Source: Blautia hansenii DSM 20583
GTDB lineage: Bacteria; Bacillota; Clostridia; Lachnospirales; Lachnospiraceae
DNA length: 64,000 nucleotides
Direction: 5' to 3'
NCBI RefSeq assembly: GCF_002222595.2
Contig: NZ_CP022413.2
Span: forward strand, 1,194,001 to 1,258,000
The notes beneath the pieces are model-generated. The model ran no database searches, was not told the origin of the DNA, and saw only the letters and a list, made by a program, of their open reading frames with translations. A program made the translations under genes and the position numbers. Shown here piece by piece: positions 3,231 to 60,141 of this stretch; position 1 is the stretch's first letter; each line of letters begins with the position of its first letter.

Positions 3231-3238
3231 GAAGAAAA

Positions 3239-24710: not shown

Positions 24711-24713
24711 GAC

Positions 24714-44942: not shown

Positions 44943-45084
44943 ACGTTTTGTGCAGGCTTTCCAAGGAAATTTTTTGTTATAGATAAATATTAGATACACA
45001 GCATAGAAACGGTGACTATTAATCATTATATATTTGTTGAAAATATTCCTATAAGGGAATATAATATAAGTGACGTTTTGTGCA
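44943..45084 (+). promoter_or_regulatory. Hxs operon promoter with 12-bp direct repeats
   Basis: TTGAAA (45037-45042) and TATAAT (45060-45065) with a 17-base spacer predict a start near 45072. ACGTTTTGTGCA occurs exactly at 45073-45084, on the start site, and again at 44943-44954, 130 bases upstream. This suggests a repressor site with an auxiliary operator. The first operon protein is itself a helix-turn-helix candidate for this site. Nothing else is recognised in 44799-45101. Confidence 0.6.
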
Positions 45085-45101: not shown

Positions 45102-45272
45102 ATGCAGTATTTAACGACTACAGAAATGGCAGAAAAATGGAACATCTCAAGACGGCGTGTAGCGGAATTATGCAGAAATGAACGAATAAATGGCGCCATA
45201 CTCAAAGGGAAAACTTGGTTGATTCCAAGTGATGCAACAAAACCAGAGGATCCAAGAAGAAATCACAATTAA
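45102..45272 (+). CDS. Small helix-turn-helix protein, first gene of the Hxs operon
   Basis: A 56-residue protein beginning MQYLTTTEMAEKWNISRRRV and continuing AELCRNERINGAILKGKTWL, a MerR/excisionase-like helix-turn-helix with its wing. GGAGG at 45091-45095 is 6 bases before ATG 45102; the longer frame upstream lacks a ribosome site. Its position at the head of the operon suggests local regulation. Confidence 0.75.
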   Translation: MQYLTTTEMAEKWNISRRRVAELCRNERINGAILKGKTWLIPSDATKPEDPRRNHN

Positions 45273-45289
45273 AGGAGTTTATTCCTAGA

Positions 45290-45658
45290 ATGAATATTAA
45301 ATTTGATGAAATGTTTAAGTTTAAAAAAGAATTATATTCGAAAACGGCATTGTTAAAGGCTGCGTATAATTTTTCTGACAGCAGTTACATTCATTTAGAT
45401 GCAGATGAAGAATATTATTATGTGTCTATATCTCCTAAAACGGATAAGCAGATACTGTTAGAGAAAGATTTCATTAACGAAATGTTAGCTCAAAGCATTC
45501 GTCACGAAGTTTACAGACAAACTAAAAATATACGTGAATTAATGTTGGCAAGAGCTATGGCATCTAGTGTAATGGTTGAAAATGATTATGAGACGTTAGA
45601 GGAGCAAGAGTTGTTTTCAGAAGATGAAATATTAAAGGATTGGTTTGAAGAAAAATGA
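45290..45658 (+). CDS. hxsD: His-Xaa-Ser system protein HxsD
   Basis: A 122-residue protein matching the HxsD family: SKTALLKAAYNFSDSSYIHL near the start and the conserved RQTKNIRELMLARAMASSVM block, with an acidic tail. HxsD is always found with the two radical SAM enzymes HxsB and HxsC, and its exact role is unknown. A substrate-binding accessory, comparable to peptide-recognition partners of other maturases, is plausible but unproven. Its stop overlaps the next ATG (ATGA). Confidence 0.8.
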   Translation: MNIKFDEMFKFKKELYSKTALLKAAYNFSDSSYIHLDADEEYYYVSISPKTDKQILLEKDFINEMLAQSIRHEVYRQTKNIRELMLARAMASSVMVENDYETLEEQELFSEDEILKDWFEEK

Positions 45659-45852
45659 TCTTATATCTACATTCTGAAATATATACAAAAGAAAAAATAG
45701 AATATACAAAATTTATATATAAGGACTATGCCCATATTGAAATAGAAAAAGAAAACGATTATTGGATAGTTATTCTAACAGAATGCAGATATGATGCTGT
45801 TTTAACTGGAAAAGCATTTGAAAATTATCTGATTGGATTGGAGAATTCATGA
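45655..45852 (+). CDS. Second, short HxsD-like protein
   Basis: A 65-residue protein, translationally coupled to hxsD. Its pattern (LHSEIYTKEKIEYTKFIYKD, then HIEIEKENDYWIVILTE) follows the N-terminal half of HxsD-type proteins but lacks the IREL block. It may be a split or duplicated HxsD half. Its stop overlaps the following gene by four bases, so it is an integral part of the operon. Low sequence complexity limits certainty. Confidence 0.5.
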   Translation: MILYLHSEIYTKEKIEYTKFIYKDYAHIEIEKENDYWIVILTECRYDAVLTGKAFENYLIGLENS

Positions 45853-46883
45853 TGAAGATGTTAGAAGGTATCATGATTATACTCATGCTTATTTTGTGTG
45901 TGCAGGCTGGTAAGACAGATATACGAGATGGAAAAGTATACAATAAAACATTATTGTTTTTTGGATTTATTGGAATAGCGTTAGATGTACTTTATTATTC
46001 GGCTTTCAACAAAACTATGTTTGTTCCATTCATGATCAATTTGGCAGTAATGATAGTAGCAAGTTTGGTGCTGTTTTATTCTCATTCTTTTGCGGGAGGA
46101 GACTGCAAGCTGTTAATGGTTCTTACTTTATTTTATCCTGCTAATTACTATATAAGTTATTCAGGAAGTCTTATTACAGTTGTGTTTACTGTAGGAATTG
46201 CATTGTTTTTTGGATATATCTATTTACTAGCTACATCTATATATGAATTGATAATTAAGAAAAATAACATGTCGGTATCATATGTAAAGGGATATTTCAT
46301 GGCTTTCTTTAAGTCATTTGGAACGGCGATAGTGTATATAAGTGTTGTAACTTTAAGTGTATCCGTTTTAGCCTTTTGGGGAATAACTCTTCCAATTTGG
46401 CTTGTTCGTATACTATGCATATTAACATCATTAATTATAGGGAAATATCCATTTTTTAAGAAAAAAATTGTCATCGGTATGATGGTAGGTTTAGATCTCA
46501 TTTTGTCTATTTTATTAAAGACCATACCATTTTCAATTCATCCAGAAAACTATGTTTTAGTCATTGTATTACTAGTATGCCAAATGACAATTAAAACGAG
46601 TCTATATCAGGAAGTCAAAATTTCAGATTTGAAAAAAGGAATGATTCTAACAATGGGTTCTTCTTTGCTTATGCAGAATTCCAGAGTAAGAGGATTACCT
46701 AAAATTTCATCAGAAGATTTACGAGATAGACTTACGGAAGATGAAATTGTTAGTATCAATAGATGGGCAAAATCACGTAAAATTGAATCGCTGTCTATTG
46801 TTAAAAAGATACCATTTGCCACATTTATAGCATGTGGATACATTTGTTATTTGATATTCTGGAGGATATTGAAATGGTGCTAA
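45849..46883 (+). CDS. A24-family prepilin-type peptidase with C-terminal extension
   Basis: A 344-residue membrane protein. Residues 1 to about 190 have the A24 aspartic peptidase layout: first catalytic Asp24 in KTDIRDGKVYNK and second Asp85 in FAGGDCKLL (the GxGD motif), with about six membrane segments. The C-terminal 150 residues add further membrane segments and a cytosolic part (KISSEDLRDRLTEDEIVSIN). Such enzymes cut leader peptides just before a hydrophobic helix. No pilin genes are in the window, so HxsA or another operon membrane protein is the likely substrate (inference). It overlaps hxsC by 10 bases. Confidence 0.8.
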   Translation: MMKMLEGIMIILMLILCVQAGKTDIRDGKVYNKTLLFFGFIGIALDVLYYSAFNKTMFVPFMINLAVMIVASLVLFYSHSFAGGDCKLLMVLTLFYPANYYISYSGSLITVVFTVGIALFFGYIYLLATSIYELIIKKNNMSVSYVKGYFMAFFKSFGTAIVYISVVTLSVSVLAFWGITLPIWLVRILCILTSLIIGKYPFFKKKIVIGMMVGLDLILSILLKTIPFSIHPENYVLVIVLLVCQMTIKTSLYQEVKISDLKKGMILTMGSSLLMQNSRVRGLPKISSEDLRDRLTEDEIVSINRWAKSRKIESLSIVKKIPFATFIACGYICYLIFWRILKWC

Positions 46884-47980
46884 GAATTGATCAGTATAAT
46901 GCTGGATTTAAGATTGTGTCTCTTGCAAAAGATGAAGAGACCTGTTGTGATTTATTGGGAGATCAATTGGATTTTGTATTTATAGAAAATGATATATTAG
47001 TATTATATCCAGAAAAAATAGTGTTGGTAGCATCTATTGATATAATATCTGAATTAAAAAAATATTCTAACTATGATGTTTTTGAAATATGGCCAGACGG
47101 CAGAATGTTTATGCGTTTTGATACCATGTCTTTAGATAATTTTTTCTTTGTGACGGGAAAATGTAATTCTAACTGTGTCATGTGTCCATCTCCTGAAATT
47201 ATGAGAAAACAGGGTGAGGAAACAGACATCATAAAATTGATTGAACTTGCAAAACATATTCCTGCAAATGTGCGTCATTTAACGATTACTGGTGGTGAAC
47301 CATTCCTAAGTGGGGAGAAAATATTTGAATTTATCTCTTTTCTTAGAGATAAATTTACCGATACAGAATGTTTGTTTTTGACAAATGGGAGAATATTTTC
47401 ATTGGATAAATATGTTAGATTATTGCAAGAAAATATGCCATCAAGATCAATTTTTGCAATACCGTTACATGCAGCTGATGAAAACTTGCATGATAAAATA
47501 ACGCAAGCAAGAGGCAGTTTCGCTCAAACAACATTGGGAATTAAACGAATGTTAAGATATGGGATGCATATTGAACTTAGAATTGTTGTTTCTAAATTAA
47601 ATTGTCACAATCTAACGAAATTGGCACAATTTATTGTTCAAGAAATTTCTCAGATTGAATATGTTAGCGTGATAGCGATGGAAATGACAGGAAGTGCATA
47701 CAAAAATAAGGACTTAGTATGGATATCCTATAGAGATGCGTTTGAATGTGCAAAAGATGCCATAAAATTATTGATTAGCAATGGGATAAATGTTAGATTG
47801 TATAATTTCCCTTTGTGTACTGTAAATTCTTCGTACTGGATGATATGTGAAAAGAGTATTTCTCCTAACAAAGTGCGTTATGGAGAAGTGTGCGAGGCAT
47901 GTAATTATAAAAGTGCCTGTGGAGGAGTTTTTGCAGGAACGATTCAAATGGAGAAAGAAGAGTTGAAAGCTATATTATGA
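46874..47980 (+). CDS. hxsC: His-Xaa-Ser system radical SAM maturase HxsC
   Basis: A 368-residue radical SAM enzyme. The 4Fe-4S cluster motif CNSNCVMC is at residues 97-104, placed unusually late after a 90-residue N-terminal domain, as in HxsC. TITGGEPFL is the SAM-binding glycine motif, and a C-terminal cysteine set (CEACNYKSACGGVF) suggests an auxiliary cluster. It probably modifies the HxsA repeats by radical chemistry. ATG 46874 is chosen with GGAGG at 46861-46865. It overlaps hxsB by four bases. Confidence 0.85.
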   Translation: MVLRIDQYNAGFKIVSLAKDEETCCDLLGDQLDFVFIENDILVLYPEKIVLVASIDIISELKKYSNYDVFEIWPDGRMFMRFDTMSLDNFFFVTGKCNSNCVMCPSPEIMRKQGEETDIIKLIELAKHIPANVRHLTITGGEPFLSGEKIFEFISFLRDKFTDTECLFLTNGRIFSLDKYVRLLQENMPSRSIFAIPLHAADENLHDKITQARGSFAQTTLGIKRMLRYGMHIELRIVVSKLNCHNLTKLAQFIVQEISQIEYVSVIAMEMTGSAYKNKDLVWISYRDAFECAKDAIKLLISNGINVRLYNFPLCTVNSSYWMICEKSISPNKVRYGEVCEACNYKSACGGVFAGTIQMEKEELKAIL

Positions 47981-49368
47981 AGTTAAATTATTTTAATTTT
48001 AAATCGTTTGAAGATGAGATTCTGCTGACGAATGATTTGGGAGAACATATCTTTTTGAAAAATGAAGAATTTCATCAACTTATCAGTAAGTCAGTACAAC
48101 AAGAATCTGATCTCGAAAAAAAGTTACTTGAGAAATATATGATTTATGATGAAACAAATTTGGAATTTACAAATAAAAATCGTTATGAGATGCAATATTT
48201 AAAAGGGCATTTGAATATGTCTGCTTCATTGCATATTTTTGTTGTAACAACAGCTTGTAATATGGGATGTGTTTATTGTCAAGCGAATAATGGGACTAAA
48301 TGTTCTAATATTTTTATGGATGAGGAGACAGCGGAAAAGGCAGTAGACATTGCATTACAGTCTCCGACCCGTTGCTTGAGTTTTGAATTTCAAGGCGGAG
48401 AGCCACTGTTAAATTTTAAAATCATAAAACATATTGTTGAATATACAGAGGAGCATAATACAAATCATGAAATCAATTACAATGTAGTCACGAATCTCAC
48501 ATTGTTAGATGATGAAAAAATAGAGTTTTTTAAAACGTATAAATTTGGTGTATCCACGTCTATAGATGGTCATGAGTATCTTCATAACAGCAATAGACCT
48601 TTCAAAGACGGAACACCAACATTTACAAAAGTCATTGATTCTCTTGATAAATTAAAAAATTCAGGAATATATGTGGGAGCAATACAAACAACTACAAGAG
48701 AATCCTTAAAGTATCCGGTTGAGATTGTAAAAACATATTATGATTTGGGATTCGACAGTATTTTTATCCGTCCGTTAACACCTTTGGGAAAAGCGACTAT
48801 AAATTGGAAAGATATTGGATATACAGCAGAAGAATATTTAGAATTTTATTTAAAGGCATTGGAAGCTACGATATCATTGAATAAAGAAGGTAGATTTTTT
48901 AAAGAAGAGCATGCAACAATATTGTTGAAACGTATATCAGGATTTTTTGTAAACTATATGGAGCTAAGATCTCCATGTGGTGCCGGTATAGGGCAATTAG
49001 CATATTATGCAGACGGCAATATATTTACCTGTGATGAAGGACGAATGTTGTATGAAATGGGAAATGAAGCCTTCAAATTAGGAAATGTAAATTCAAGTAC
49101 ATATAGCACTCTTATAGGTAATAGTGCTTGTAAGGCAATTTGTGCTTCAACTATTTTGGAATCTATTCCTACATGTTGTGATTGCGTATACCAACCGTAT
49201 TGTGGAACATGTCCTGTCGTGAGTTATGCTGCAACAGGAGATATTATAGAAAAGTCACCGAGAGGATATAGATGCAAGATATATGCTGGTATGTTAGATA
49301 AATTATTCTTACTTTTAAAAGAGAATGATACTCAAATAGTACATATATTACAGACATGGAGTAATTAA
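47977..49368 (+). CDS. hxsB: His-Xaa-Ser system radical SAM maturase HxsB
   Basis: A 463-residue radical SAM/SPASM protein. CNMGCVYC is at residues 94-101, FQGGEPLLN binds SAM, and the C-terminal SPASM region has cysteines in SPCGAGI, FTCDEG, CCDCVYQPYCGTCP and YRCKIY. SPASM enzymes usually modify peptides. Together with HxsC it forms the two-enzyme maturase pair that defines Hxs systems. ATG 47977 is coupled to hxsC through ATGA. Confidence 0.88.
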   Translation: MKLNYFNFKSFEDEILLTNDLGEHIFLKNEEFHQLISKSVQQESDLEKKLLEKYMIYDETNLEFTNKNRYEMQYLKGHLNMSASLHIFVVTTACNMGCVYCQANNGTKCSNIFMDEETAEKAVDIALQSPTRCLSFEFQGGEPLLNFKIIKHIVEYTEEHNTNHEINYNVVTNLTLLDDEKIEFFKTYKFGVSTSIDGHEYLHNSNRPFKDGTPTFTKVIDSLDKLKNSGIYVGAIQTTTRESLKYPVEIVKTYYDLGFDSIFIRPLTPLGKATINWKDIGYTAEEYLEFYLKALEATISLNKEGRFFKEEHATILLKRISGFFVNYMELRSPCGAGIGQLAYYADGNIFTCDEGRMLYEMGNEAFKLGNVNSSTYSTLIGNSACKAICASTILESIPTCCDCVYQPYCGTCPVVSYAATGDIIEKSPRGYRCKIYAGMLDKLFLLLKENDTQIVHILQTWSN

Positions 49369-49369
49369 A

Positions 49370-50734
49370 ATGGGCAAAAAGAAACAAGACGAAATAATAG
49401 TTCAAGAGACGGAAAAGCCTTTGGAAGACAATAGTATTATAGAAAAGGCACTTCCAGAACAAGAATACAACAAAAGCAAAAAAAATATGAGGAAAAAAAT
49501 TGCTTTAGGAATGATTGCGTTACTAGCTATCGAAGTAGCATCAGCAGCTTTTTATGTGAATACAATCATGCAAGATAATATTCATCATCGTGTTGTACGA
49601 GAGGTTCGTTATCAAATAGATGATAAATTGGTCCTCAAAACAGGAACATTTACCGGTGATTTAGATTTCGGTGTATTTAGTGGAAACGGAGAATTTATCT
49701 TCGACACTGGTTCTGTATACGAAGGTGAGTGGGCTGATAATTATTTTGATGGATTAGGAAAACTACAAGTACCATCCGAGGGAGTATATGAAGGAAAATT
49801 TATAAATGGACTCAAATCTGGTAAAGGAACATTTACTTGGGATGATGGAGACATTTATGAGGGTGAATGGAAAAATGATCAAATGAATGGTCAGGGAATA
49901 TATACTACTTCTGATGCAGTAGTTTATAGTGGCACATTTGAAAATAATTCCTTTAAAGAAGGTTCGTGTGAGTTTAGTAATGATGAAGGCACTTATTCCT
50001 TAACATTTGCTAATAATGCAATTTCTAATGCGGAGATTAAATATGCAGATGGTACCAAATATTCTGGAGTTTGTTCTAAATCTGATATCACAGGATCAGG
50101 CACAATGGTCTTTATTAATGAGGACAAGTATGTAGGAGAGTTTGAAGGCAACAAACGGTCCGGTAAAGGTGTATACACATGGAAATCAGGTGCATCTTAT
50201 GATGGAGATTGGTTAAATGATAACATGAATGGAACCGGAACATATACATATTCAAAAAATAATTACGCTACTGGAAAGTTTGAAGAAAATATTTTTATAG
50301 AAGGCTCTTATCATATATTAAATGATTTTGGTGAGTATACATTTACAATTAAAAATGGAGAACCAACAGCTGTAGAAATGACTTTAGCAAATGGAACGAC
50401 ATATTCAGGAGGCATGTCAAAAGGGAAACTGAATGGCACTGCACAGATAAAGTATAGTAATGGTGATAAGTACAGCGGAAATGTAACGGATAATCAAAAA
50501 TCAGGTCAAGGCACATATGTATGGACAAGCGGTGCTACCTATGAAGGAAATTGGTCAAAAGACAGAATGCATGGAAGTGGAACATATAGCTACCCTAAGA
50601 ATCAAACAGGGTATCAATTAACTGGTGAATTCAAAGAAGGCCGTCCTAATGGTGAATGTACGTATTATGTAAGTGCTTCTGAATATTACAAAACTGATTG
50701 GTCAAATGGAAAATGTGTAAAGGTGTATGAATAG
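49370..50734 (+). CDS. Membrane-anchored MORN-repeat protein
   Basis: A 454-residue protein. A charged cytosolic stretch (1 to about 42) is followed by one membrane helix (KIALGMIALLAIEVASAAFY), then an outside domain of about ten MORN repeats (YEGEWADNYFDGLGKL, YEGEWKNDQMNGQG, YDGDWLNDNMNGTG and others). MORN repeats form elongated beta scaffolds that bind lipids or proteins. In this operon it may hold the modified HxsA at the envelope. GGAG nine bases before the ATG is its ribosome site. Confidence 0.8.
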   Translation: MGKKKQDEIIVQETEKPLEDNSIIEKALPEQEYNKSKKNMRKKIALGMIALLAIEVASAAFYVNTIMQDNIHHRVVREVRYQIDDKLVLKTGTFTGDLDFGVFSGNGEFIFDTGSVYEGEWADNYFDGLGKLQVPSEGVYEGKFINGLKSGKGTFTWDDGDIYEGEWKNDQMNGQGIYTTSDAVVYSGTFENNSFKEGSCEFSNDEGTYSLTFANNAISNAEIKYADGTKYSGVCSKSDITGSGTMVFINEDKYVGEFEGNKRSGKGVYTWKSGASYDGDWLNDNMNGTGTYTYSKNNYATGKFEENIFIEGSYHILNDFGEYTFTIKNGEPTAVEMTLANGTTYSGGMSKGKLNGTAQIKYSNGDKYSGNVTDNQKSGQGTYVWTSGATYEGNWSKDRMHGSGTYSYPKNQTGYQLTGEFKEGRPNGECTYYVSASEYYKTDWSNGKCVKVYE

Positions 50735-50736
50735 TT

Positions 50737-51291
50737 ATGGATAATTTATTTCCCGAATTTAAAAAAAGTATTGAAAATTTAATAGAAGATGAGGAAGGTA
50801 ATATCCCAGGGGGGAAATTACTAGCCTTAGGTACAATGATTATAATCCTAGGAAGTTTGATGTCGGTTGATGCGTTTGCAGGACATAGATCGCATAGTTC
50901 ACATAGATCGCATAGTTCACATAGATCTCATTCTTCGGGATCGCATGGTAATAGTCATAGTAATCATGGAAGTCATGAAAGTCATCAGAGTCATCAGAGC
51001 CATACTTCTCATTCAAATACAGGTTCTCATTCGAATTCTCGTTATAGTGCTGAGGGTGACGTTACATATTCTGCACCTGCGGCTTCTAGTGTACCGACAA
51101 TTTCAACACCAGCAGTTGAGATGACAGCCGATACATTTAAATTGCCAGATGTGAATCAAAATATTCAGTTGCCGAATGGAACCCCAATTTCAAGTATTTT
51201 GCCGGCATTTGCAGTGCCAGCATCTACAGTTGCTCCTAAAATGGAATCAATAGATCCTAATACACCATCGGCAACAGAAACTGTTGAATAA
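50737..51291 (+). CDS. hxsA: His-Xaa-Ser repeat protein HxsA, predicted substrate
   Basis: A 184-residue protein. Residues 1-24 are acidic. A Gly-Gly at about 25-26 precedes a hydrophobic helix (KLLALGTMIIILGSLMSVDA), then a His-Xaa-Ser region (HRSHSSHRSHSSHRSHSS, later HQSHQSHTSHS) and a Pro/Thr/Ser-rich tail. The repeat is the defining feature of HxsA, thought to be modified by HxsB/HxsC. The tail would be outside the membrane. It lies directly after the MORN gene in the same operon. Confidence 0.85.
   Translation: MDNLFPEFKKSIENLIEDEEGNIPGGKLLALGTMIIILGSLMSVDAFAGHRSHSSHRSHSSHRSHSSGSHGNSHSNHGSHESHQSHQSHTSHSNTGSHSNSRYSAEGDVTYSAPAASSVPTISTPAVEMTADTFKLPDVNQNIQLPNGTPISSILPAFAVPASTVAPKMESIDPNTPSATETVE
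50884..50937 (+). repeat. 18-bp tandem repeat in hxsA
   Basis: CATAGATCGCATAGTTCA occurs at 50884-50901 and 50902-50919, and a diverged third copy is at 50920-50937. Each encodes two His-Xaa-Ser units. Near-identity at DNA level implies recent expansion by slippage. Confidence 0.9.
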
Positions 51292-51305
51292 GAGGGAGGG
51301 ATAAG

Positions 51306-52421
51306 ATGTCTATTTTTAAAAAGAAATTTGCAAAGGAACAAAAAGAATCTATAGTTGTAGAGCAAGAAGATAACGGATTACCTGAAATATCTAGTTATGA
51401 GCAAGAACCGGAGAAAGTGGCAGAAATTGTTAATAATAGTTTGAAAAAAGGATATTTTTCAGAAATAAGTCAAAAGATAGAATCTCTTCCCAGTACAGGA
51501 TATAAACGTACACAGTATGTATTTGAGGGACCAAAAACAGGAGGATTTCTCTGGTTTATTACAATGTGCACTATTGTTTCAGCATGTTTCTTATATTTTG
51601 CTGCTATGGGGTTAGGAATGCATCTGTATTCCAATGATTATGAGCAATATAGTTTATTGTTTATGTGTGGCTCAGGTGTATTTATATGTATAAACATCTT
51701 TTTGATTGTGTTATCGATAAAAGTAATTCAATTTGCCAAGCGTTACGAAAAATATTATGAATTGTTACAGTATAAAAATGTTGAAATCATCGATGATATC
51801 AGTAATTGTGCTAAGATACCGTATAATAGAGTTGTTGCGGATTTGATGTTATCTGTTAAGAAAAAGATGATACCGCAAGGTCATTTTACTACGGATAATT
51901 TAGTGTTTATTGCTTCAGATGAGCTATATTCTAAATATGAATCTGATAGACCTACGTATGATCGATATTATAAACAGTTGATTGAAGAACGTATTCGAAT
52001 GGAAGAACGTTCCGCTGAAATACAGAAAATAATTGATATTGGTCAGGAATATGTCGAAAAAATTCATAATAGCAATCATCTTATTAAAGATAAAGAAATT
52101 ACTTTAAAGTTAAATAAGATGGAAAAATTGGTATCAGCTATTTTTAGAGAAGTAGATTTGAATCCACACCAATCTAATAAGCTGGGTATGTTTATCAATT
52201 ACTATTTACCGACTACAGAGAAGCTATTGAATGCATATATAGACATAAATGAGAAAAAGATAGAAGGAAACAATATCGCTAAGGCAAAGAAAGATATTGA
52301 GCAGGCAATAGATATGCTGATCGTGTCGTTTGAAGGAATTTTAAATCAATTCTATGAATCTATAGAAATGGATATTTCTGGAGAAATTGCCGTAATGGAA
52401 AAAATGAAAAATAAAAAGTAG
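51306..52421 (+). CDS. XpaC-like membrane protein
   Basis: A 371-residue protein. An acidic N-terminal segment is followed by two membrane helices (about 80-150) and a long helical cytosolic part. It ends with the XpaC-family signature: LVSAIFREVDLNPHQ, MFINYYLPTTEKLLNAYIDI and the AKKDIEQAIDMLIVSFEGIL helix. XpaC is usually paired with TelA proteins, as here. The old annotation (5-bromo-4-chloroindolyl phosphate hydrolysis) does not describe a proven enzyme activity. GGGAGGG precedes the ATG. An envelope-associated role is likely. Confidence 0.78.
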   Translation: MSIFKKKFAKEQKESIVVEQEDNGLPEISSYEQEPEKVAEIVNNSLKKGYFSEISQKIESLPSTGYKRTQYVFEGPKTGGFLWFITMCTIVSACFLYFAAMGLGMHLYSNDYEQYSLLFMCGSGVFICINIFLIVLSIKVIQFAKRYEKYYELLQYKNVEIIDDISNCAKIPYNRVVADLMLSVKKKMIPQGHFTTDNLVFIASDELYSKYESDRPTYDRYYKQLIEERIRMEERSAEIQKIIDIGQEYVEKIHNSNHLIKDKEITLKLNKMEKLVSAIFREVDLNPHQSNKLGMFINYYLPTTEKLLNAYIDINEKKIEGNNIAKAKKDIEQAIDMLIVSFEGILNQFYESIEMDISGEIAVMEKMKNKK

Positions 52422-52435
52422 ATGGTGATTACGGA

Positions 52436-53233
52436 ATGAATGAATCAATGGATGATATCTTGAAATATGTAGAAAAACTCACCTCATATGTACAAGGCGA
52501 GGTAAAAGTAGGTGACTATGAATCATTATCTATTTTGGGTAGCAAGGAACAGCAACATCTTTCTGAAATATCACAAGATATATCGCAGCTTTTTTTGAAT
52601 CAGAGTGATGAAATCGGAAGCACAATCAGTTTATTGTTAGATAAATTAACTTCTATCAGACTTCCACAAAGTAGAGAAAAGAGATGTTTTTTTGTAAAAA
52701 AAAAGAAAAAGTTACCAGAATCTGTAATTTGGGGTCAGTATACAGATGCTAATAGATATATTGAAAAATTAACCTGTGAATTAGAATTACAAAAAGTACA
52801 ATTGCTTAAGGAAGAGCATCTGCTAACCAGATTGGAAAGTCAATTAAAAGATTGTGAACAAGATTTGTTGATGTGTGAGAAAAAAGGAACGCATATATTA
52901 AAAACGAAATCAGCTTTAGATGATGATGTATGGTGGGAACGACTGGAACAAAGAATCAATGATATTTCAGTATCGAAAATAGTTACCAAACAATCATTAT
53001 TACAGATACAATTATTAAGTAAAAACAATACTGCAATCATCAATAAAATAGAGTCTTTATTGGAAAATGTTGTACCAATATGGAAAAAGCAGATAGAAAT
53101 ATTTGTTTCAGTAATGAAGAAAACAGATGATGCTCAAATCTGCCAATTGATGGAAGAAGAAATGATGCTTTTATCTAAATTTGAAATCGCAGATGGAACA
53201 ATAAGAAAAGAATTAGAAAGTGTTTCACTATGA
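52436..53233 (+). CDS. Divergent TelA-like helical protein
   Basis: A 265-residue, almost entirely helical protein. Its C-terminal region (KQSLLQIQLLSKNNTAIINK, then LENVVPIWKKQIEIF) follows the same pattern as the TelA protein encoded next (QSAPQVRMLQNNDRELLDKL, LSNTIPLWRNQLVL), so it looks like a shortened TelA paralogue. A basic patch (FFVKKKKK) lies mid-protein. Its stop codon TGA at 53231-53233 lies 14 bases before the telA start. It probably forms a hetero-oligomer with the TelA and XpaC proteins (inference). Confidence 0.6.
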   Translation: MNESMDDILKYVEKLTSYVQGEVKVGDYESLSILGSKEQQHLSEISQDISQLFLNQSDEIGSTISLLLDKLTSIRLPQSREKRCFFVKKKKKLPESVIWGQYTDANRYIEKLTCELELQKVQLLKEEHLLTRLESQLKDCEQDLLMCEKKGTHILKTKSALDDDVWWERLEQRINDISVSKIVTKQSLLQIQLLSKNNTAIINKIESLLENVVPIWKKQIEIFVSVMKKTDDAQICQLMEEEMMLLSKFEIADGTIRKELESVSL

Positions 53234-53247
53234 AAGGAGCATTTACA

Positions 53248-54408
53248 ATGAGTAACAAAACGATTCTAACACTAAATCCAGAGGAGAAAACAGAAGACGT
53301 ACATATGTTGAATATACCAACAATGACGGCTGTTGACGCAGGAATCAATAAAGGTGGTTATAATGCAGGAACTATCGATGAGTCTATGTTATCAGAAGAA
53401 GAAAAAGAACAAGTCGAACAATTTGCAGCTGAAATAGATATTTCAAATGTGGATCAGGTTGTACAGTATGGTATGTCAGCTCAGCAAAATATTTCAAATT
53501 TTTCTGTTTCGATTCTCAAGAAAGTTAAAACTTATGATTTGGGCGAAGTTGGAACTTCGTTGAAAGAATTGACCGTTGCCATTGATGCCACAACAGAGCC
53601 AGAGAAAAAAGGAATATTTGGATTATTTCAAAAAGCAAAAAGGGGAGTTGGCTCAATTAGGGCAAATTACGCAAAAGCGGAAAGTAATGTGGACCGTATT
53701 GAAAAAGATTTAAGATTACATCAAAATACACTGATACAGGATGTATCAATGTATCAACAAATGTATGAACTGAATGTGCAATATTACAAAGAATTGACAA
53801 TGTATATCATTGCAGGTAAAAAGGCTCTGGATATTGCAAAAGCAGGAAAGCTACAAGAGCTAAAGAATAAAGCTGACAGCACAAATATGCAGGAAGATGT
53901 TCAGGCCTTTAAAGATTTTGAAGATTTATGTTATCGATTTGAAAAGAAAATCAATGATTTGGAATTTACAAGAGTGATTGCGATTCAGTCTGCTCCACAG
54001 GTTAGAATGCTTCAAAATAATGATCGTGAATTATTGGATAAATTGCAGTCTTCATTGTCAAATACAATACCTCTTTGGAGAAATCAGTTGGTTCTTTCAT
54101 TGGGAATAGAACGTTCAAAACGAGCACTTGACGCACAATCTACTCTTACAGAAAAGACGAATGAACTGTTAAGAAGAAATTCAGAAACATTAAAAATGGC
54201 AACAATTGAAACAGCGGAAGAGGTTGAAAAGCCTATTGTAGATATTGAAACATTGCGCTTATGTAGCAAAAACTTGATTACTTCGGTGAATGAGGTTATG
54301 AAAATTCATGAAGCAGGATCTGTTCAAAGAGTAAAAGCACAGGAAGAACTTATCAAAATTGAAGAGGATTTGAAACAGGCAATGCTGGAATCTAAATTTA
54401 GAAAATAG
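53248..54408 (+). CDS. TelA-family (toxic anion resistance) protein
   Basis: A 386-residue, all-helical cytosolic protein of the TelA/KlaA family. The family core includes RVGSIRANYAKAESNVDRIE-type helices, VSMYQQMYELNVQYYKELTM, IAIQSAPQVRML and NTIPLWRNQL. TelA proteins have been linked to tellurite and antimicrobial-peptide tolerance, but their biochemical role is unknown. ATG 53248 has AAAGGAG eight bases upstream; the ATG at 53230 overlaps the previous stop and lacks a ribosome site. It pairs with the XpaC-like gene. Confidence 0.85.
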   Translation: MSNKTILTLNPEEKTEDVHMLNIPTMTAVDAGINKGGYNAGTIDESMLSEEEKEQVEQFAAEIDISNVDQVVQYGMSAQQNISNFSVSILKKVKTYDLGEVGTSLKELTVAIDATTEPEKKGIFGLFQKAKRGVGSIRANYAKAESNVDRIEKDLRLHQNTLIQDVSMYQQMYELNVQYYKELTMYIIAGKKALDIAKAGKLQELKNKADSTNMQEDVQAFKDFEDLCYRFEKKINDLEFTRVIAIQSAPQVRMLQNNDRELLDKLQSSLSNTIPLWRNQLVLSLGIERSKRALDAQSTLTEKTNELLRRNSETLKMATIETAEEVEKPIVDIETLRLCSKNLITSVNEVMKIHEAGSVQRVKAQEELIKIEEDLKQAMLESKFRK

Positions 54409-54460
54409 ATGATTTCAAAAAGAGGTAAATTGAAGTTCTTTTTGAAAATGGAGGGTGCTT

Positions 54461-55024
54461 GTGAAAAAATTTAAAGTAACAATTAATGCTCCTATAGTTT
54501 TAGGGTTTGTATTTGTTTGCGCTATTTCATTGATTATCGGTACTTTAACACAAGGGATGAGCACAGAAGCTTTGTTCATGACATATCATTCATCTTTGAA
54601 AAATCCAATGACCTATTTACGTTTTTTTACGCATGTTTTTGGACATGAAGGTATGTCTCATTTCATAGGAAACACGATATATATTTTGCTATTGGGTCCA
54701 TTACTTGAAGAGAAATATGGATCAAGCTGTTTGATAAAAGTGATACTAGTTACAGCTTTTGTAACAGGGATTGTAAATTATATATTTTTTCCACAAATAG
54801 CATTGTGTGGAGCTAGTGGTGTGGTATTTGCATTTATTGTTTTATCATCATTTACTGGCTTCAAAAATGGAGAAATACCCCTTACATTTATATTGGTTGT
54901 AGTATTATTCTTGGGACAGCAGATATATGAAGGAATTGCACTGCATGATAATGTTTCTCAAATTACACATATCATTGGTGGAGCGATTGGTGGATTTGTT
55001 GGATATTTTTTTAATAGAAAATGA
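54461..55024 (+). CDS. Rhomboid-family intramembrane serine protease
   Basis: A 187-residue, six-helix rhomboid protein. HFIGN (His67, Asn71) is the helix-2 motif, CGASG contains the nucleophile Ser119, and THIIGGAIGGF in the last helix supplies the catalytic histidine. It cleaves membrane helices of substrate proteins. GTG 54461 after TGGAGGG is the preferred start over GTG 54455. As the last gene of the Hxs operon, it could release HxsA or the MORN protein from the membrane (inference). Confidence 0.85.
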   Translation: MKKFKVTINAPIVLGFVFVCAISLIIGTLTQGMSTEALFMTYHSSLKNPMTYLRFFTHVFGHEGMSHFIGNTIYILLLGPLLEEKYGSSCLIKVILVTAFVTGIVNYIFFPQIALCGASGVVFAFIVLSSFTGFKNGEIPLTFILVVVLFLGQQIYEGIALHDNVSQITHIIGGAIGGFVGYFFNRK

Positions 55025-55082
55025 AATTGCAGATTTAGTAAAAAATAAATATAGTATAATCTAAAGAGAGTTGAAGTAACTG

Positions 55083-55124
55083 TACTCCTATGATTTCAAT
55101 TTTGAAGTCATAGGGGTATTTTTT
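55083..55124 (+). terminator. Terminator of the Hxs operon
   Basis: TACTCCTATGATTTC (55083-55097) pairs with GAAGTCATAGGGGTA (55104-55118) with two G-T pairs, followed by TTTTTT. It closes the twelve-gene operon. Confidence 0.88.
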
Positions 55125-55332: not shown

Positions 55333-55737
55333 ATGAACAAAACAATCTTAATGGGAAGACTGACAAAAGATCCGGAGGTGAAATATCTCCAGGATGAAAA
55401 CAGTACTGCAATGGCAAGATACACGCTGGCAGTAGACAGGCGATATCGAAAGGATGGAAAGGCAGAAACAGATTTTATTTCTTGTGTTACCTTTGGGAAG
55501 AATGCTGAGTTTGTAGAAAAATATCTGCAAAAAGGGTTGAAGATTTTAGTAAGCGGACGGATCCAGACAGGAAGCTATGTGAATCAGGAGGGGAATAAAG
55601 TTTATACCATCAATGTGATCGTAGAAGAACATTATTTCGCAGAAGGGAAGAAACTGTCAGGATCAGAAAAGAAAGAAGATACCGATCCGGATGGATTTAT
55701 GCATCTTCCAGACGGAGAAGAACTTCCGTTTGAGTAA
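55333..55737 (+). CDS. ssb: Single-stranded DNA-binding protein
   Basis: A 134-residue OB-fold protein: MNKTILMGRLTKDPEVKYLQ start, DFISCVTFGKNAEFVEKYLQ and KGLKILVSGRIQTGSYVNQEG. It ends with the acidic DGEELPFE tip, which recruits partner proteins. It coats single-stranded DNA during transfer and rolling-circle-type replication of the element. AAAGGAG precedes the ATG. It is likely element-specific rather than the host's main SSB. Confidence 0.93.
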   Translation: MNKTILMGRLTKDPEVKYLQDENSTAMARYTLAVDRRYRKDGKAETDFISCVTFGKNAEFVEKYLQKGLKILVSGRIQTGSYVNQEGNKVYTINVIVEEHYFAEGKKLSGSEKKEDTDPDGFMHLPDGEELPFE

Positions 55738-55763
55738 GAAAAACTCGGATGCTGAAAGCAGAA

Positions 55764-55792
55764 GAGCGCACTTATATACCTTACAAGGTATG
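55764..55792 (-). other. Putative origin of transfer (MOBQ-like oriT)
   Basis: On the minus strand, the inverted repeat ATACCTT/AAGGTAT (55777-55792) is followed one base later by AAGTGCGCTCT (55774-55764). This matches the MOBQ arrangement of an inverted repeat next to a TAAGTGCGCCCT-type nick region. It lies between ssb and the relaxase operon, and the relaxase found here is of the MobA/MobL (MOBQ) class. Confidence 0.65.
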
Positions 55793-55939
55793 TACGTCCT
55801 ACGGAGTTTGCATCTTTCTGAAGGGGAATTCCGAAAGTGTTTGCGGATGATCCATCCGAAGAAGGGTTCCCCTTCCGGCAGAAATGCCTATCCCGTAACA
55901 GAGAAAATGGAAGAGTTGAAAAAGGAGAAAAAGAACGAT

Positions 55940-56251
55940 ATGGCGAAGAAGAAAACATTTCAGGAATATACCCAAGAAGCACTTCTTGAGATTGAAAAAA
56001 CAGAAGCTGCATTGAAACAGGTAAAGCTTGAGAAGGAGCAGGCAGAGCACAGGATCCAGAGATCCTTGAATTATCTGGATACACAGAAAAAGAAAAAGCG
56101 AAAGGCACGAACCCATCTGTTGATCCAGAAGGGAGCAGCCATAGAAGCAATCTGTAAAGATACCAAATATCTGACAGAGGCAGAATTTTATCAGCTGATG
56201 GATGAACTTCTTCATGATCCCGCTTGTAAGTTTTGTGATTGTCGTTCATGA
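55940..56251 (+). CDS. DUF3847-type small relaxosome-associated protein
   Basis: A 103-residue protein: a long basic coiled coil (EALLEIEKTEAALKQVKLEK, then SLNYLDTQKKKKRKARTHLL) with the end block EAICKDTKYLTEAEFYQLMD. It resembles DUF3847 proteins found before MobA/MobL relaxases and is likely a relaxosome accessory protein that binds near oriT. ATG 55940 has AAGGAG about 13 bases upstream. Earlier in-frame codons would read through the putative oriT and are rejected. Confidence 0.65.
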   Translation: MAKKKTFQEYTQEALLEIEKTEAALKQVKLEKEQAEHRIQRSLNYLDTQKKKKRKARTHLLIQKGAAIEAICKDTKYLTEAEFYQLMDELLHDPACKFCDCRS

Positions 56252-56252
56252 A

Positions 56253-56363
56253 ATGGTTCGTGGACGGGCGGAAACTGCAGAAGCGAAGGAACGAGAATTC
56301 GCAGAAGAGGAAGCACTATTAAAGGCGATGCAGCGAGGTGAACTGCCACAGGGAGATGCGTAA
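56253..56363 (+). CDS. 36-residue hypothetical protein before the relaxase gene
   Basis: Starting at ATG 56253, one base after the previous stop, this short frame (MVRGRAETAEAKEREFAEEE, ending ELPQGDA) is charged and helical and ends one base before the relaxase ATG. A GTG at 56235 could add six residues. Tight packing suggests it is translated; no function can be assigned. Confidence 0.45.
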   Translation: MVRGRAETAEAKEREFAEEEALLKAMQRGELPQGDA

Positions 56364-56364
56364 G

Positions 56365-57912
56365 ATGGGATGTTATCACTTTCATCTAAATCAATTATCC
56401 AGAGGAAAAGGGCAGTCTGCCATTGCTAGTGCTGCTTACCGAGCCGGTACAAAACTGGAATGTACGTATTATGGAGAAGTGAGTGATTATACGAGAAAAG
56501 GCGGTGTGGTATTAGCGGAGATCCATCTTCCCCAACAGGCTCCGGAGAGATTCAAAGACAGAGAGACCCTTTGGAATGAGGTGGAATGGATCGAAGGGAA
56601 TAAGAAAGCACAGCTGGCACACAGCTTTGATATTGCCTTGATGAATGAGTTTTCCATGGGAGAAAATATTGAGCTTGCAAGAAGATTCGTAGAAGAACAG
56701 TTAGTCGCAAGAGGGATGATCGCAGATCTAGCGATCCATGATCCGAAGAAAGCAAAGGATAAAATACCCAATCCCCATATGCACATCATGGTTCCCATCC
56801 GCCCTTTACAGGAAGATGGTACCTGGGGACAAAAACAAAAAAAGGTTCCAGTATTAACACCGGATGGACAGACGGTTTTGAATCAGAAAGGACAACCGGT
56901 ATTTCGGGCGGTACATACAACGGATTGGAGCAGGAAAGAAACCTTGGAAGAATTGAGAAGTGCCTGGGCGAAGATGTGTAACGAACTGTATGAAGAAAAA
57001 GGACTTACAGAAAGAGTCGATGCCAGGTCTTATGAGGAACGGGGGATTGATAAGATCCCGATGGTGCATGAAGGACCGAATGTACAGGCAATGGAAGCAA
57101 GAGGGATTTCAACCGCACTGGGAAGTTTAAACCGACTCATCCGAGCCTTAAATGATATGAAAGAACGGGCAAAGAATCTTCTTCAATGGTCCTTGTTTCG
57201 AGAAAGCCAACTGATGGAACGGATGGTGTTCTTACATCAGCCAACCTTAGCGGATTATCTGAGAAACTATTGTGATAAGAGAAATGCAGTTGCAGAATCC
57301 TACGCTTATGGAACACAAAAGGCGAAGAATACAAATCTGAAACAATTTGCAGAGACGATCCGCTTTCTGGAAGAGCAGGATGTGAGAACCCCAGAACAGC
57401 TGACAGAGAAAATCCAGGAATTAGATACTCAGCTAAAAGAGGTAAGTCAGCGATTGAATCAACAACTGTCTGCTTTGCGAAGTGTCAACAGCAATCTTTA
57501 TGCAATGAAAGAGTATTTTGAAACAAGACCTGTTTATCTGGAATTAAAGAACAAATATTTTGGCAGGGAAAAATTCAAAGAGGAACATAAGAAGGAACTT
57601 AGCGGATATTATCGTTCGGAAAGAATCTTAAAAGAAAATCTAGATCCAAGTGGGAAGATTCCGGAAGGACAATGGAAACGAGAAGCCGCCCGTTTATCAG
57701 AAGAGATAGCTGCTTTACGAAAAGAAGATAAACGGATCTATGCCATGTTACGAAAGTATGAGGAAGTCAAAAATCATGTGGAAGCTTTGATGGCAGAGGA
57801 AGGAGAAGGTGTCTCTCTTCCAGAAACAAACAAACGGGAGCAATCCACAGAAACAAAAGAAGCAGTGAGAACCATGAAACGAAAGAAGAAACATCATGGA
57901 ATGGAGTTATAG
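56365..57912 (+). CDS. mobL: MobA/MobL-family relaxase
   Basis: A 515-residue MOBQ-class relaxase. Its N terminus, CYHFHLNQLSRGKGQSAIAS then AAYRAG, is the family signature. The HUH metal site is PHMHIMVPIRPL. The C-terminal 250 residues are coiled coil. It nicks oriT and leads the strand into the recipient through a helper's secretion system. ATG 56365, with GGGAGA upstream, is chosen over the ATG at 56338. The frame is intact. Confidence 0.92.
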   Translation: MGCYHFHLNQLSRGKGQSAIASAAYRAGTKLECTYYGEVSDYTRKGGVVLAEIHLPQQAPERFKDRETLWNEVEWIEGNKKAQLAHSFDIALMNEFSMGENIELARRFVEEQLVARGMIADLAIHDPKKAKDKIPNPHMHIMVPIRPLQEDGTWGQKQKKVPVLTPDGQTVLNQKGQPVFRAVHTTDWSRKETLEELRSAWAKMCNELYEEKGLTERVDARSYEERGIDKIPMVHEGPNVQAMEARGISTALGSLNRLIRALNDMKERAKNLLQWSLFRESQLMERMVFLHQPTLADYLRNYCDKRNAVAESYAYGTQKAKNTNLKQFAETIRFLEEQDVRTPEQLTEKIQELDTQLKEVSQRLNQQLSALRSVNSNLYAMKEYFETRPVYLELKNKYFGREKFKEEHKKELSGYYRSERILKENLDPSGKIPEGQWKREAARLSEEIAALRKEDKRIYAMLRKYEEVKNHVEALMAEEGEGVSLPETNKREQSTETKEAVRTMKRKKKHHGMEL

Positions 57913-57927
57913 GAGGAATTTTAGAAG

Positions 57928-59835
57928 ATGGAAGAATATACAAGAGAACAGATTCAAAGAGCAGATGATACTGATTTATATGTTTTTCTTTCTGGGAGAG
58001 GAGAACAGTTCAAACGATGTGGGAAGGAATACCGATGGTTGCGACATGACAGTGTGATGATCAACAAGAACGAATGGTATCGTTTTAGTCAGAATAAAGG
58101 TGGTCATGCCATCGATTTTATGAAAGAATTTTACGGTCTTTCTTTTGCAGAGGCAGTTAAAGAATTATTAGGAGAAGAGGGAGTTGGAGAAACCAACAGA
58201 AGAACGGACAAGGAAGATGCAGGCAGACAGAAGGTCTGCCCCATCCCCTTGCCTGGATTGGAATTGCCAGAAAGAAATGAAAGCTGTGAGATTGCAAGGA
58301 AGTATCTCATTGAGCAGAGGAAACTATCGGAATGGCTGATAGATCAGATGATTGCAAAGGGGGATATTTATGAAAGTAAAAACTATCACAATGTGGTATT
58401 CGTCGGAAGAGACAAAGAACAGAATCCTAGATATGCAGCTATGCGGGGAACCGATGAGAACCGATATCGTGGGGAGGCAAGAGGTTCGGAAAAAGCCTAT
58501 GGATTTGGCCATATAGGAACGGATGAAAAACTGTTTGTGTTTGAATCCCCCATTGATCTTTTGTCTTATATCACTGCAGTTCCGGAAGACTGGGGAAAGC
58601 ATAGTTATATTTCTCTGGGCGGATTGAGTGAAAAAGCAATGAAACGGATGTATACAGAATATCCTCATATTCATTCCATCTACTTGTGTCTGGATAATGA
58701 TGAGCCTGGAAATGAGAGATGCACGCAGTTTGTTTCTCTTATTCCGAAGGAACTGAGTGTGTACCGATTAGAACCGGTGAAGAAAGACTGGAATGAATGT
58801 CTGGTAGCAGAAGTTCCAGTAGAAAATATGGCAAAGCAGATGTGTTGGAGAGATGCCAGGGAAAAACCAGTTCCGGTCATGAAAATGTCGGAGGTTGAGG
58901 AAACGGTGGTCCAGTGGTTATGGTATCCCTTCATTCCCTTTGGAAAGGTTACTTTGATCCAAGGGAATCCGGGAAAAGGAAAAACATGGCTTGCAATGGC
59001 AATTGCCGCATACTGTACCAACGGAAAGGAACTTCCCAATGCACTTCCGATAGAACCCTTTAATGTGTTGTATCAAACAGCAGAGGATGGGATTGCAGAT
59101 ACCATTAAACCCAGATTAGCAAAATGTGGTGCAGATATGACAAGGGTACGATTCATCAATGAAGAAGAAAAACAGCTTTCTATGACGGACGATCGGATTG
59201 AAAAAGCCATCCGACAGAATAATGTACGACTCATGATCATGGATCCCATACAGGCTTATCTGGGAGCCAATGTGGATATGAACCGGGCAAATGAGATCCG
59301 TCCCTTATTTCGACATCTCAGTACGATTGCAGAGAGAACTGGATGTGCCATTGTTCTCATTGGACATTTGAATAAGTCGTCGGGAAGTCAGAGTGATTAC
59401 CGTTCCCTGGGATCCATTGATATCGCAGCGGCAGTACGAAGCATCTTATTTGTAGAAAAGGTGGAAAAAGAGAAGGAACAGGATATCCGAGTGGTATATC
59501 AGCAAAAGGATTCTCTTGCTAAAAAAGAAAATCCGGTAGCGTTTTCTTTAGGAGAAAAAGGCTTAAAATGGTTAGGAGAATACGATATATCCATTGAAGA
59601 TCTGCTAATGGGAAAAGCAGGAACGAAAAAGGAAACGAAACTGGAAAAGGCACAGAAATTGATCCTGGAGTTATTAACCAAACGAAAAGTGATGTGTTTA
59701 GAAGAATTAGAGGCGGAACTACTTGCCTATGGGATTTCTTCCAGAACAGGAAGAGATGCAAGAAAGCAGCTGGAAAACAGATTGAGCTACGACTGGTGTC
59801 AGGGAAGAAAAACAGTTGCGTTAATCACAGAATAA
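57928..59835 (+). CDS. Primase (toprim, DUF3991)-RepA-like ATPase fusion
   Basis: A 635-residue replication protein. Residues 1 to about 90 are a zinc-finger-like/DUF3991 N terminus, and about 140-280 a toprim domain (VFESPIDLLSYI, YLCLDNDEPGNERC). From about 330 onward lies an AAA_25/RepA-like hexameric helicase with Walker A QGNPGKGKTW and Walker B RLMIMDPIQAYLG. A winged-helix tail ends the protein. It primes and unwinds the element's DNA for replication. GGAGG precedes the ATG. Confidence 0.85.
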   Translation: MEEYTREQIQRADDTDLYVFLSGRGEQFKRCGKEYRWLRHDSVMINKNEWYRFSQNKGGHAIDFMKEFYGLSFAEAVKELLGEEGVGETNRRTDKEDAGRQKVCPIPLPGLELPERNESCEIARKYLIEQRKLSEWLIDQMIAKGDIYESKNYHNVVFVGRDKEQNPRYAAMRGTDENRYRGEARGSEKAYGFGHIGTDEKLFVFESPIDLLSYITAVPEDWGKHSYISLGGLSEKAMKRMYTEYPHIHSIYLCLDNDEPGNERCTQFVSLIPKELSVYRLEPVKKDWNECLVAEVPVENMAKQMCWRDAREKPVPVMKMSEVEETVVQWLWYPFIPFGKVTLIQGNPGKGKTWLAMAIAAYCTNGKELPNALPIEPFNVLYQTAEDGIADTIKPRLAKCGADMTRVRFINEEEKQLSMTDDRIEKAIRQNNVRLMIMDPIQAYLGANVDMNRANEIRPLFRHLSTIAERTGCAIVLIGHLNKSSGSQSDYRSLGSIDIAAAVRSILFVEKVEKEKEQDIRVVYQQKDSLAKKENPVAFSLGEKGLKWLGEYDISIEDLLMGKAGTKKETKLEKAQKLILELLTKRKVMCLEELEAELLAYGISSRTGRDARKQLENRLSYDWCQGRKTVALITE

Positions 59836-59840
59836 AAGAT

Positions 59841-59906
59841 GACATTGGCAAAAAAATACTTTGGCATTGGCAGTCTTTATAGATACCTTTGCCAGCCGCC
59901 AATGTC
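59841..59906 (+). repeat. Inverted repeat between primase and xis
   Basis: GACATTGGC (59841-59849) pairs with GCCAATGTC (59898-59906). A further GGCATTGGC (59863-59871) and TTTGCC inside allow alternative pairing. It could be a regulatory hairpin or attenuator controlling xis-int expression. Confidence 0.5.
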
Positions 59907-59937
59907 AAAAACAAAGATAATAGAAGGAGGCATACAA

Positions 59938-60141
59938 ATGACAAGTTATGATATACCTTATTGGAAGAAGTATACATTATCCATTGAAGAGGCAGCATCC
60001 TATTTTCGTATTGGAGAAGGAAAGCTTCGTAAGTTAGTCAGTGACAATCCAAATGCAGAGTATTTGCTTTGGAATGGGAATCGTGTATAGATAAAACGAA
60101 CAAGATTTGAAAAATTTATTGATACACTCAGTGCGATATAA
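59938..60141 (+). pseudogene. xis: Excisionase (Tn916 Xis-type) with premature amber codon
   Basis: ATG 59938, with GAAGGAGG upstream, encodes [20 protein letters not shown] then LLWNGNRV and stops at TAG 60088-60090. The same frame continues IKRTRFEKFIDTLSAI to TAA 60139-60141, matching the missing C terminus of Tn916-family Xis (NGNRVLIKRKLFEEF). A single T-to-A change of a TTG codon explains it. The 50-residue product lacks the last helix and is probably inactive. Confidence 0.8.

Follow-up and report, generated by a model that had tools for sequence, protein, structure and literature searches.

Which genes make up a His-Xaa-Ser (Hxs) locus, and what might become of the peptide that it encodes? 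The question is raised by twelve closely packed genes at positions 45102–55024 on the + strand of a 64,000-nucleotide stretch of the gut bacterium Blautia hansenii DSM 20583 (contig NZ_CP022413.2, positions 1,194,001 to 1,258,000), which we refer to in its entirety as the window. The Hxs system, which Haft and Basu are said to have described in 2011, is, as far as our searches show, known from computation alone and has no product assigned to it. A preliminary description of this run had placed all twelve genes in one envelope-oriented pathway, in which a repeat peptide is modified, proteolytically processed and displayed or released. Our comparison with related loci gave good support to a smaller conserved unit, a predicted seven-gene HxsA3 system that comprises HxsD, an HxsD-like protein, a dedicated A24 peptidase, HxsC, HxsB, a MORN-repeat partner protein and the precursor HxsA3, and it set apart the XpaC, TelA and rhomboid genes that follow in the window.

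The seven-gene cassette

We scored the window proteins with Pfam and NCBIfam models, and give scores below as bits obtained over the curated cut-off. NCBIfam models of the Hxs system cover HxsA/A2/A3/A4, HxsB, HxsC, HxsC4, HxsD and HxsD-like proteins, and the window's five Hxs proteins all exceeded their cut-offs: HxsD (45290–45658, +; TIGR03976, 91.9/50), the HxsD-like protein (45655–45852, +; NF038315, 63.1/41), the radical SAM protein HxsC (46874–47980, +, its start at 46874 lying behind GGAGG; TIGR03977, 357/268), the radical SAM/SPASM maturase HxsB (47977–49368, +; TIGR03978, 573/370) and the precursor (50737–51291, +; NF038309, 116.5/65). We assigned the precursor to the HxsA3 type because it passed NF038309 and reached only 25.7/121.65 with the classical HxsA model TIGR03979, far under that cut-off. 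It has a Flp-like leader (EDEEG), a hydrophobic segment, an AFA site and His-Xaa-Ser repeats. The other two members are an Hxs-type A24 membrane aspartyl peptidase (45849–46883, +; PF01478, 25.1 bits), with predicted catalytic residues D24 and D85, the latter in a GGD motif, and a membrane-anchored MORN-repeat protein (49370–50734, +; PF02493, MORN 152.7/22.5).

HxsB exceeded its cut-off in 5 of 397 genomes drawn from the family, 2 of 398 from the phylum and 1 of 20 from the genus, with the window's own genome counted each time; the family and phylum draws together comprise about 790 distinct genomes. From named genomes we took the best 80 of 574 confirmed Hxs loci, found by a scan seeded with six HxsB proteins, so that A24-type relatives are over-represented among these 80. 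Seven further loci from viral contigs, six from other genomes and the window brought the total to 94 stretches, which were annotated with profiles grown from the window proteins. Before loci were counted we dropped L016 (on the same contig as L023), L018 and L019, along with L043, L056, L077 and L085, whose HxsB was more than 90% identical to that of a kept locus, and removal of loci with less than 3.5 kb of flank on either side reduced the remaining 87 to 63. Among the annotated stretches, the three closest relatives of the window by HxsB, at 61–64% identity, came from genome G102, Eubacterium ramulus and Floccifex porci.

Across these 63 de-duplicated loci with full flanks, HxsD was present in 61, HxsC in 58, HxsA3 in 51, A24 in 44, the HxsD-like gene in 41 and MORN in 36. 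No other cassette gene lay between A24 and HxsC in any of 44 loci, or between MORN and HxsA3 in any of 36. Two main layouts were found, D-(D-like)-A24-C-B-MORN-A3 and MORN-A3-D-(D-like)-A24-C-B, both of which leave these blocks intact, in Clostridia, Eggerthellaceae, Spirochaetales and Synergistales. Clostridium ljungdahlii (L054) is one of the hosts of the cassette. Mirror-tree correlations with HxsB were 0.83 for A24, 0.81 for HxsC, 0.72 for MORN, 0.71 for HxsD and 0.58 for HxsA3, with values as high in 0 of 999 permutations; they fit co-inheritance, but are also expected from shared ancestry. The view that the A24 and MORN genes belong to the Hxs system is supported by their frequency and fixed neighbours and, for A24, by phyletic co-occurrence as well.

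Clustering of the unassigned open reading frames (ORFs) around the Hxs loci produced no further family in more than eight loci, and no pilus assembly gene family was among the recurrent neighbors. The commonest unassigned neighbors, named from reading their sequences, were tyrosine recombinases (8 loci), a membrane protein of about 350 residues (7) and VanZ-like proteins (6). The protein of about 350 residues has an N-terminal hydrophobic segment and sits behind HxsA3 in L020, L027, L041, L053, L055, L059 and L063, in four loci accompanied by a partner of about 260 residues. An apparent A24-HxsC fusion of 1273 residues in the Oscillibacter locus L027 was discarded, as the reading frame runs across a stretch of Ns in the scaffold.

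MORN repeats were recognized by Pfam in 42 of the 43 scanned members of the MORN family, the window's included, and 42 of 43 carried an N-terminal hydrophobic segment. Five matches to wall domains were found among the 43 (SLH in two, peptidoglycan-binding in two and CWB2 in one), and the classical HxsA of an Aeromonas plasmid carries a peptidoglycan-binding domain in cis. From the wall domains of the MORN partners and of this plasmid HxsA, we infer that the Hxs product may act at the cell wall; the earlier view of the gene set as envelope-oriented is supported. In A24 loci that lack MORN, HxsA3 was longer (8 versus 35 sequences, Mann-Whitney p = 0.002), and the eight long proteins matched no Pfam family. 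One idea is that the longer HxsA3 might compensate for the absent MORN protein.

The A24 peptidase and the HxsA3 leader

The window A24 protein lies close to the PF01478 gathering score of 26.5, with 25.1 bits in the protein scan and 27.0 in the genome search. Its membership of the family is marked by the two predicted catalytic aspartates, the second in GGD, both of which are present. Of 48 aligned members (the window's and 47 of 54 listed), 46 matched PF01478 at E 0.01 or better and three matched Arc_PepC_II, and D24, N32, G84, D85 and K87 were invariant in all 48. A wider set of 60 retained D24, G84, D85 and K87 in 59 and N32 in 60. Against PDB sequences the A24 profile found a single match, FlaK (3s0x, E 4.7e-4). 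For the A24 proteins scanned, namely the window's and two remote ones, and for the window MORN protein, every NCBIfam model stayed below its cut-off. The Hxs enzyme shares sequence likeness with FlaK and other archaeal A24 peptidases but is bacterial and linked in operons to radical SAM genes, and it differs from TadV in being larger (about 344 residues) and in having a C-terminal domain.

Scoring the five best first-look candidates per genome, we found full-length A24 matches (more than 270 bits) in 4 of the 397 family genomes and 2 of the 398 phylum genomes, every one of them HxsB-positive. The remaining profile matches, three in the family and one in the phylum, scored at most 48.4 bits and fell in frames of 174–190 residues. 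Among the roughly 790 genomes, then, five of the six with HxsB over its cut-off carried a full-length A24 and none elsewhere did. The sixth, G332, has a contig that starts inside HxsC; G243, whose HxsB is partial, interrupted by an internal stop and under the cut-off, also lacks a full-length A24. Ordinary A24 enzymes were present in all five HxsB genomes tested. The A24 subfamily thus tracks HxsB phyletically in spite of ordinary A24 enzymes in the same genomes, which is our strongest result.

Immediately before its hydrophobic segment HxsA3 bears a leader of the form F-x-x-[DE]-E-[DE]-[G/A], spaced as in Flp prepilin leaders. In 53 HxsA3 sequences from A24 loci, position 18 was Asp or Glu in 50, position 19 Glu in 51 and position 20 Glu or Asp in 52, and the -1 residue (position 21) was Gly in 50, Ala in 3 and nothing else. 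Basic residues follow the motif (R25 in 39 of 53, K27 in 46 of 53), and the hydrophobic segment ends in a signal-peptidase-like [AV]-x-[AG] site. Of 51 scorable HxsA3 proteins, 50 had the motif in place, and none of 186 other ORFs whose N terminus bears a hydrophobic segment did. Cleavage by prepilin peptidases is described as falling at Gly or Ala ahead of the hydrophobic stretch, usually with Glu or Asp at +5 (PMC3244431). In HxsA3 the +5 residue was Asn in 21, Gly in 16, Ser in 15 and His in 1 of 53, with no pilin-type Glu or Asp.

Flp/Tad pili and the HxsA3 system have in common the spacing F-x-x-[DEQN]-E-x-[G/A] of a leader that precedes a hydrophobic segment, and both come with a two-aspartate A24 enzyme, which in the pili is TadV. 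Flp pilins from the Tad loci of four genomes (the window's own, G102, G159 and G008) showed the same spacing, with Ala at -1 in two and Gly in two; with Ser at its sixth position, the G159 pilin would escape a strict form of the leader pattern. Unlike these pilins, HxsA3 has no Glu at +5, carries a His-Xaa-Ser domain in place of the pilin domain and belongs to a cassette without assembly genes. We therefore rejected HxsA3 as a true pilin and regard it, from its primary structure, as prepilin-like in its leader alone. The six classical plasmid or viral HxsA proteins examined (L102, L104, L105, L108, L109 and L157) differ from the window HxsA3 in having no leader with the EEG motif.

Where the flank retrieved around an HxsB locus showed no A24, we searched the genome itself, eighteen genomes in all. 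Some A24 enzyme was found in 14 of the 18, and the Hxs A24 profile matched at E 0.001 in 16 of 20 genomes when two positive loci were included. Nine of the 18 loci (L078, L080, L082, L083, L085, L087, L092, L097 and L100, among which L085 is more than 90% identical in HxsB to a kept locus) encode an HxsA with an EEG leader, and the profile matched in all nine of these genomes, clearly in six and at the borderline in three. Of the six clear matches, four extend across both the peptidase domain and the tail at the C terminus; a fifth takes in most of a 340-residue protein, and the sixth is a piece of the tail at the end of a contig. Scores of 17–29 bits with the same profile were obtained for TadV-size proteins from Tad loci in four HxsB genomes. 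The A24 gene directly adjoins an HxsC-like radical SAM gene in 7 of 12 remote regions. L145, L146, L147 and L151, at a distance from HxsB, have runs of four such radical SAM genes with an Hxs-type A24 behind them; the radical SAM genes of L145, the example that was scanned, resemble HxsC4/HxsC and remain below the cut-off.

HxsB occurred in 341 plasmid records, but tblastn with two queries gave an A24 match in no plasmid record, although very distant forms would escape such a search. One of the seven viral loci, L101, holds a MORN-A3-D-A24-C-B cassette. Phage carriage of the cassette was also considered for MT837156.1 (L110), which is filed as a phage, and was set aside, as the record is an unverified 7.6 kb scaffold that is probably bacterial. 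It bears the entire seven-gene cassette at 871–6425 and, by reading, a FabZ-like gene.

Accessory genes, boundaries and surroundings of the run

In the window the cassette is followed by an XpaC-like (PF10112) membrane protein (51306–52421, +; Halogen_Hydrol, 42.3/29.8), a short TelA-like protein (52436–53233, +; TelA, 73/30), TelA (53248–54408, +; 346/30) and a rhomboid protease (54461–55024, +; PF01694, 70.5/22.6), whose GTG start at 54461 was read from the sequence. The rhomboid translation contains GASG and THIIGG, which we take to be the motifs of the catalytic Ser and His. XpaC comes after HxsA3 in four loci, those of the window, G102, Floccifex porci and Eubacterium ramulus. In the first three it is followed by TelA genes, the F. 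porci contig ending inside TelA1, and the E. ramulus locus has XpaC without the TelA run. A rhomboid gene ends the operon in the window and in G102 (L015), where the full XpaC-TelA-TelA-rhomboid run recurs; a rhomboid count of 0 in the 63 loci reflects the 6 kb limit of the count, beyond which the gene lies in both. At L111 (1153–1818) a rhomboid-like gene, so named by reading, adjoins the Tad pilus locus of the same genome.

XpaC was found in 4, TelA1 in 3 and TelA2 in 2 of the 63 loci. Among 98 related genomes, part of which were tested for HxsB, XpaC was present in 43 and TelA in 51, with the two no more than 2.5 kb apart in 39 of the 43; the bearers include members of the window's genus, in which 19 of 20 genomes lack HxsB. 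The window's own genome has a second XpaC-TelA pair near 2.476 Mb, and G008 has HxsB with both XpaC and TelA absent. XpaC and TelA are likewise adjacent in the XpaC-TelA (YaaN) operon of Firmicutes, from which the window differs in that the pair stands behind HxsA3 and is joined by a second, short TelA and a rhomboid gene. To judge from these distributions, XpaC-TelA is a common chromosomal pair and XpaC-TelA-TelA-rhomboid an addition in one sublineage, which we class as accessory because it is missing in most relatives, the pattern under which the preliminary description had said that such genes would count as chance cargo. Its inclusion of A24 and MORN in the system is supported, and its inclusion of XpaC, TelA and rhomboid as integral parts is not. 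One source lists TelA among Listeria nisin-resistance genes (PMC8865564, citing Collins 2010) and another mentions a putative XpaC-TelA operon in Listeria (PMC12791056). Given the nisin-resistance listing, a role of the module in stress or self-protection is possible by analogy.

Neighboring genes of the run overlap by 4–10 bases or are separated by 1–52 bases, with starts chosen in this analysis. The run opens with a small HTH_17/excisionase-like DNA-binding protein (45102–45272, +; HTH_17, 31.4/27), which had no counterpart in the other annotated Hxs loci. Upstream lies a promoter-like site (45037–45065, +), TTGAAA-17-TATAAT, which matches the consensus at 11 of 12 positions, and downstream a terminator-like hairpin of 17 pairs with a T run (55082–55119, +). 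The same scan returned 70 promoter-like sites versus 59.7 (standard deviation 6.2) in shuffled sequence, and 3 terminator-like sites versus 3.8. The earlier account of twelve tight genes behind one promoter and before one terminator was therefore confirmed for the genes; a single promoter and terminator are plausible, with similar sites about as frequent in shuffles.

The region upstream (5820–39683) is rich in defence genes, among them type I restriction-modification genes (21401–27938), a TIR protein (7588), AbiH (30709), Schlafen/AlbA proteins (11606 and 31675), a borderline NACHT protein (18821) and a 1957-residue P-loop protein (33810). Mobility genes lie downstream (55333–61339): SSB, DUF3847, a MobA/MobL relaxase, a Toprim/AAA protein and a Tn916-type integrase whose two domains occupy two overlapping ORFs (60228–60905 and 60890–61339). 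Horizontal gain of the Hxs locus is likely, because HxsB is absent from the other 19 of the 20 genus genomes.

Processing of HxsA3 and its alternatives

A mechanism can be proposed on the basis of what was observed: which genes are present and how they are conserved, the intact predicted catalytic residues, the pattern of the leader, and the linkage of A24, phyletic to HxsB and physical to HxsC. HxsB and HxsC, aided by HxsD and its small paralogue, the HxsD-like protein, would act in the cytoplasm to modify the His-Xaa-Ser repeats that HxsA3 carries, as their known families suggest, and HxsA3 would then insert into the membrane through its hydrophobic segment. The FlaK/TadV-like A24 enzyme would cut the leader on the cytoplasmic side after Gly or Ala (residue 21 in the window, EDEEG|N), as prepilin peptidases do, and an ordinary signal peptidase may cut at [AV]-x-A, freeing or exposing the modified repeat domain outside, where it would work next to the membrane- or wall-anchored MORN protein. 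The XpaC-TelA-TelA-rhomboid genes would be one sublineage's addition, perhaps for envelope stress or self-protection. We judge this sequence of events, from modification of HxsA3 in the cytoplasm through a cut by the system's own A24 enzyme to presentation at the envelope alongside the MORN protein, to fall just short of an even chance. A broader version would make HxsA3 and HxsA4 prepilin-like ribosomally synthesized and post-translationally modified peptides (RiPPs), in which a Flp-type class III leader and a dedicated A24 are joined to radical SAM modification and a His-Xaa-Ser polymer at the surface, from Clostridia to Eggerthellaceae, Spirochaetales, Synergistales, Omnitrophota, Patescibacteria-type and deltaproteobacterial genomes; this we put forward tentatively, as a possibility with somewhat less behind it.

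Several observations weigh against cleavage of HxsA3 by the A24 enzyme. Because HxsA3 itself served to define the leader motif, its presence in 50 of 51 follows by construction, and six more HxsA3 ORFs could not be scored. The motif also persists in 9 of 12 HxsA3/A4 sequences whose flank lacks A24, a set that includes L027 (A24 cut by a gap) and L078 and L083 (A24 further along the contig), and in which the three without EEG are L094, L103 and L107; it could therefore serve the maturases for docking. HxsA3 is without the Glu that pilins have at +5, and as it comes with a good signal-peptidase-like site of its own, the target of A24 might lie elsewhere. The borderline A24 proteins of G795, G797 and G801 reach 42–52 bits besides a weak tail match, comparable to the 43–49 bits of TadV-size proteins in three genomes without HxsB. 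Among the 18 remote HxsB genomes, the A24 profile found nothing in G799, G800, G802 and G806, and in G804 just a protein of TadV size. As only G802 (L094) of these five shows an HxsA in its locus, the coupling of EEG to A24 has one negative case to draw on. The L094 leader differs, KKEKKLTRRDFL, without EEG, and that genome has two ordinary A24 enzymes and no match to the Hxs A24 profile. The L094 protein (11523–11867) is HxsA4-like, and its leader, KKLTRRDFL, appears Tat-like by reading.

These points lend themselves to another reading, in which the EEG leader is a recognition element for HxsB, HxsC and HxsD and A24 processes a different protein or HxsA3 at another place. The persistence of EEG where no A24 flanks it, the conserved basic residues that trail it and the [AV]-x-A site as an ordinary exit from the membrane would all suit this reading, but the restriction of -1 to Gly and Ala in A24 loci and the nine matches to the A24 profile (three of them borderline) in nine genomes with an unlinked EEG-type HxsA do not, and the six classical HxsA proteins go with HxsB yet lack EEG, so HxsB does not generally need it. 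We consider a recognition role without cleavage of this leader doubtful, if still a serious contender. The original notion that all twelve genes form one integrated envelope pathway, with rhomboid as a second protease and XpaC/TelA as required membrane partners, could draw on the same run in G102, its partial form in Floccifex porci and XpaC alone in Eubacterium ramulus; the handful of the 63 loci with these genes, their frequency in related genomes, the second pair in the window's own genome and G008, with HxsB and neither gene, make it improbable. Least probable of all, and by our estimate very unlikely, is a RiPP secreted as an antimicrobial, to which TelA/XpaC would give immunity or tolerance: peptide-modifying radical SAM families and the nisin-resistance listing of TelA (PMC8865564) would accord with it, but no exporter or immunity gene is shared, given that no further ORF family exceeds eight loci, and the SLH, peptidoglycan-binding and CWB2 domains of the MORN proteins point to retention at the wall.

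In the literature searched, which leaves many subscription papers outside, we found no description of a link between A24 or MORN and the Hxs system; prepilin peptidase, radical SAM and RiPP never appeared together in one paper, and MORN repeats and radical SAM did so only in a domain-identification method paper. The available passages of PMC9062424 and PMC8446631 merely name the system, and those of a review (PMC8326336) contain no His-Xaa-Ser. Under the proposed mechanism, an A24 subfamily and an envelope MORN protein that travel with the system give it a predicted site (after G21), a candidate enzyme (D24/D85) and a probable place of action, the cell envelope. If this is true, the maturation of peptides that radical SAM enzymes act on would be a further task of prepilin peptidases.

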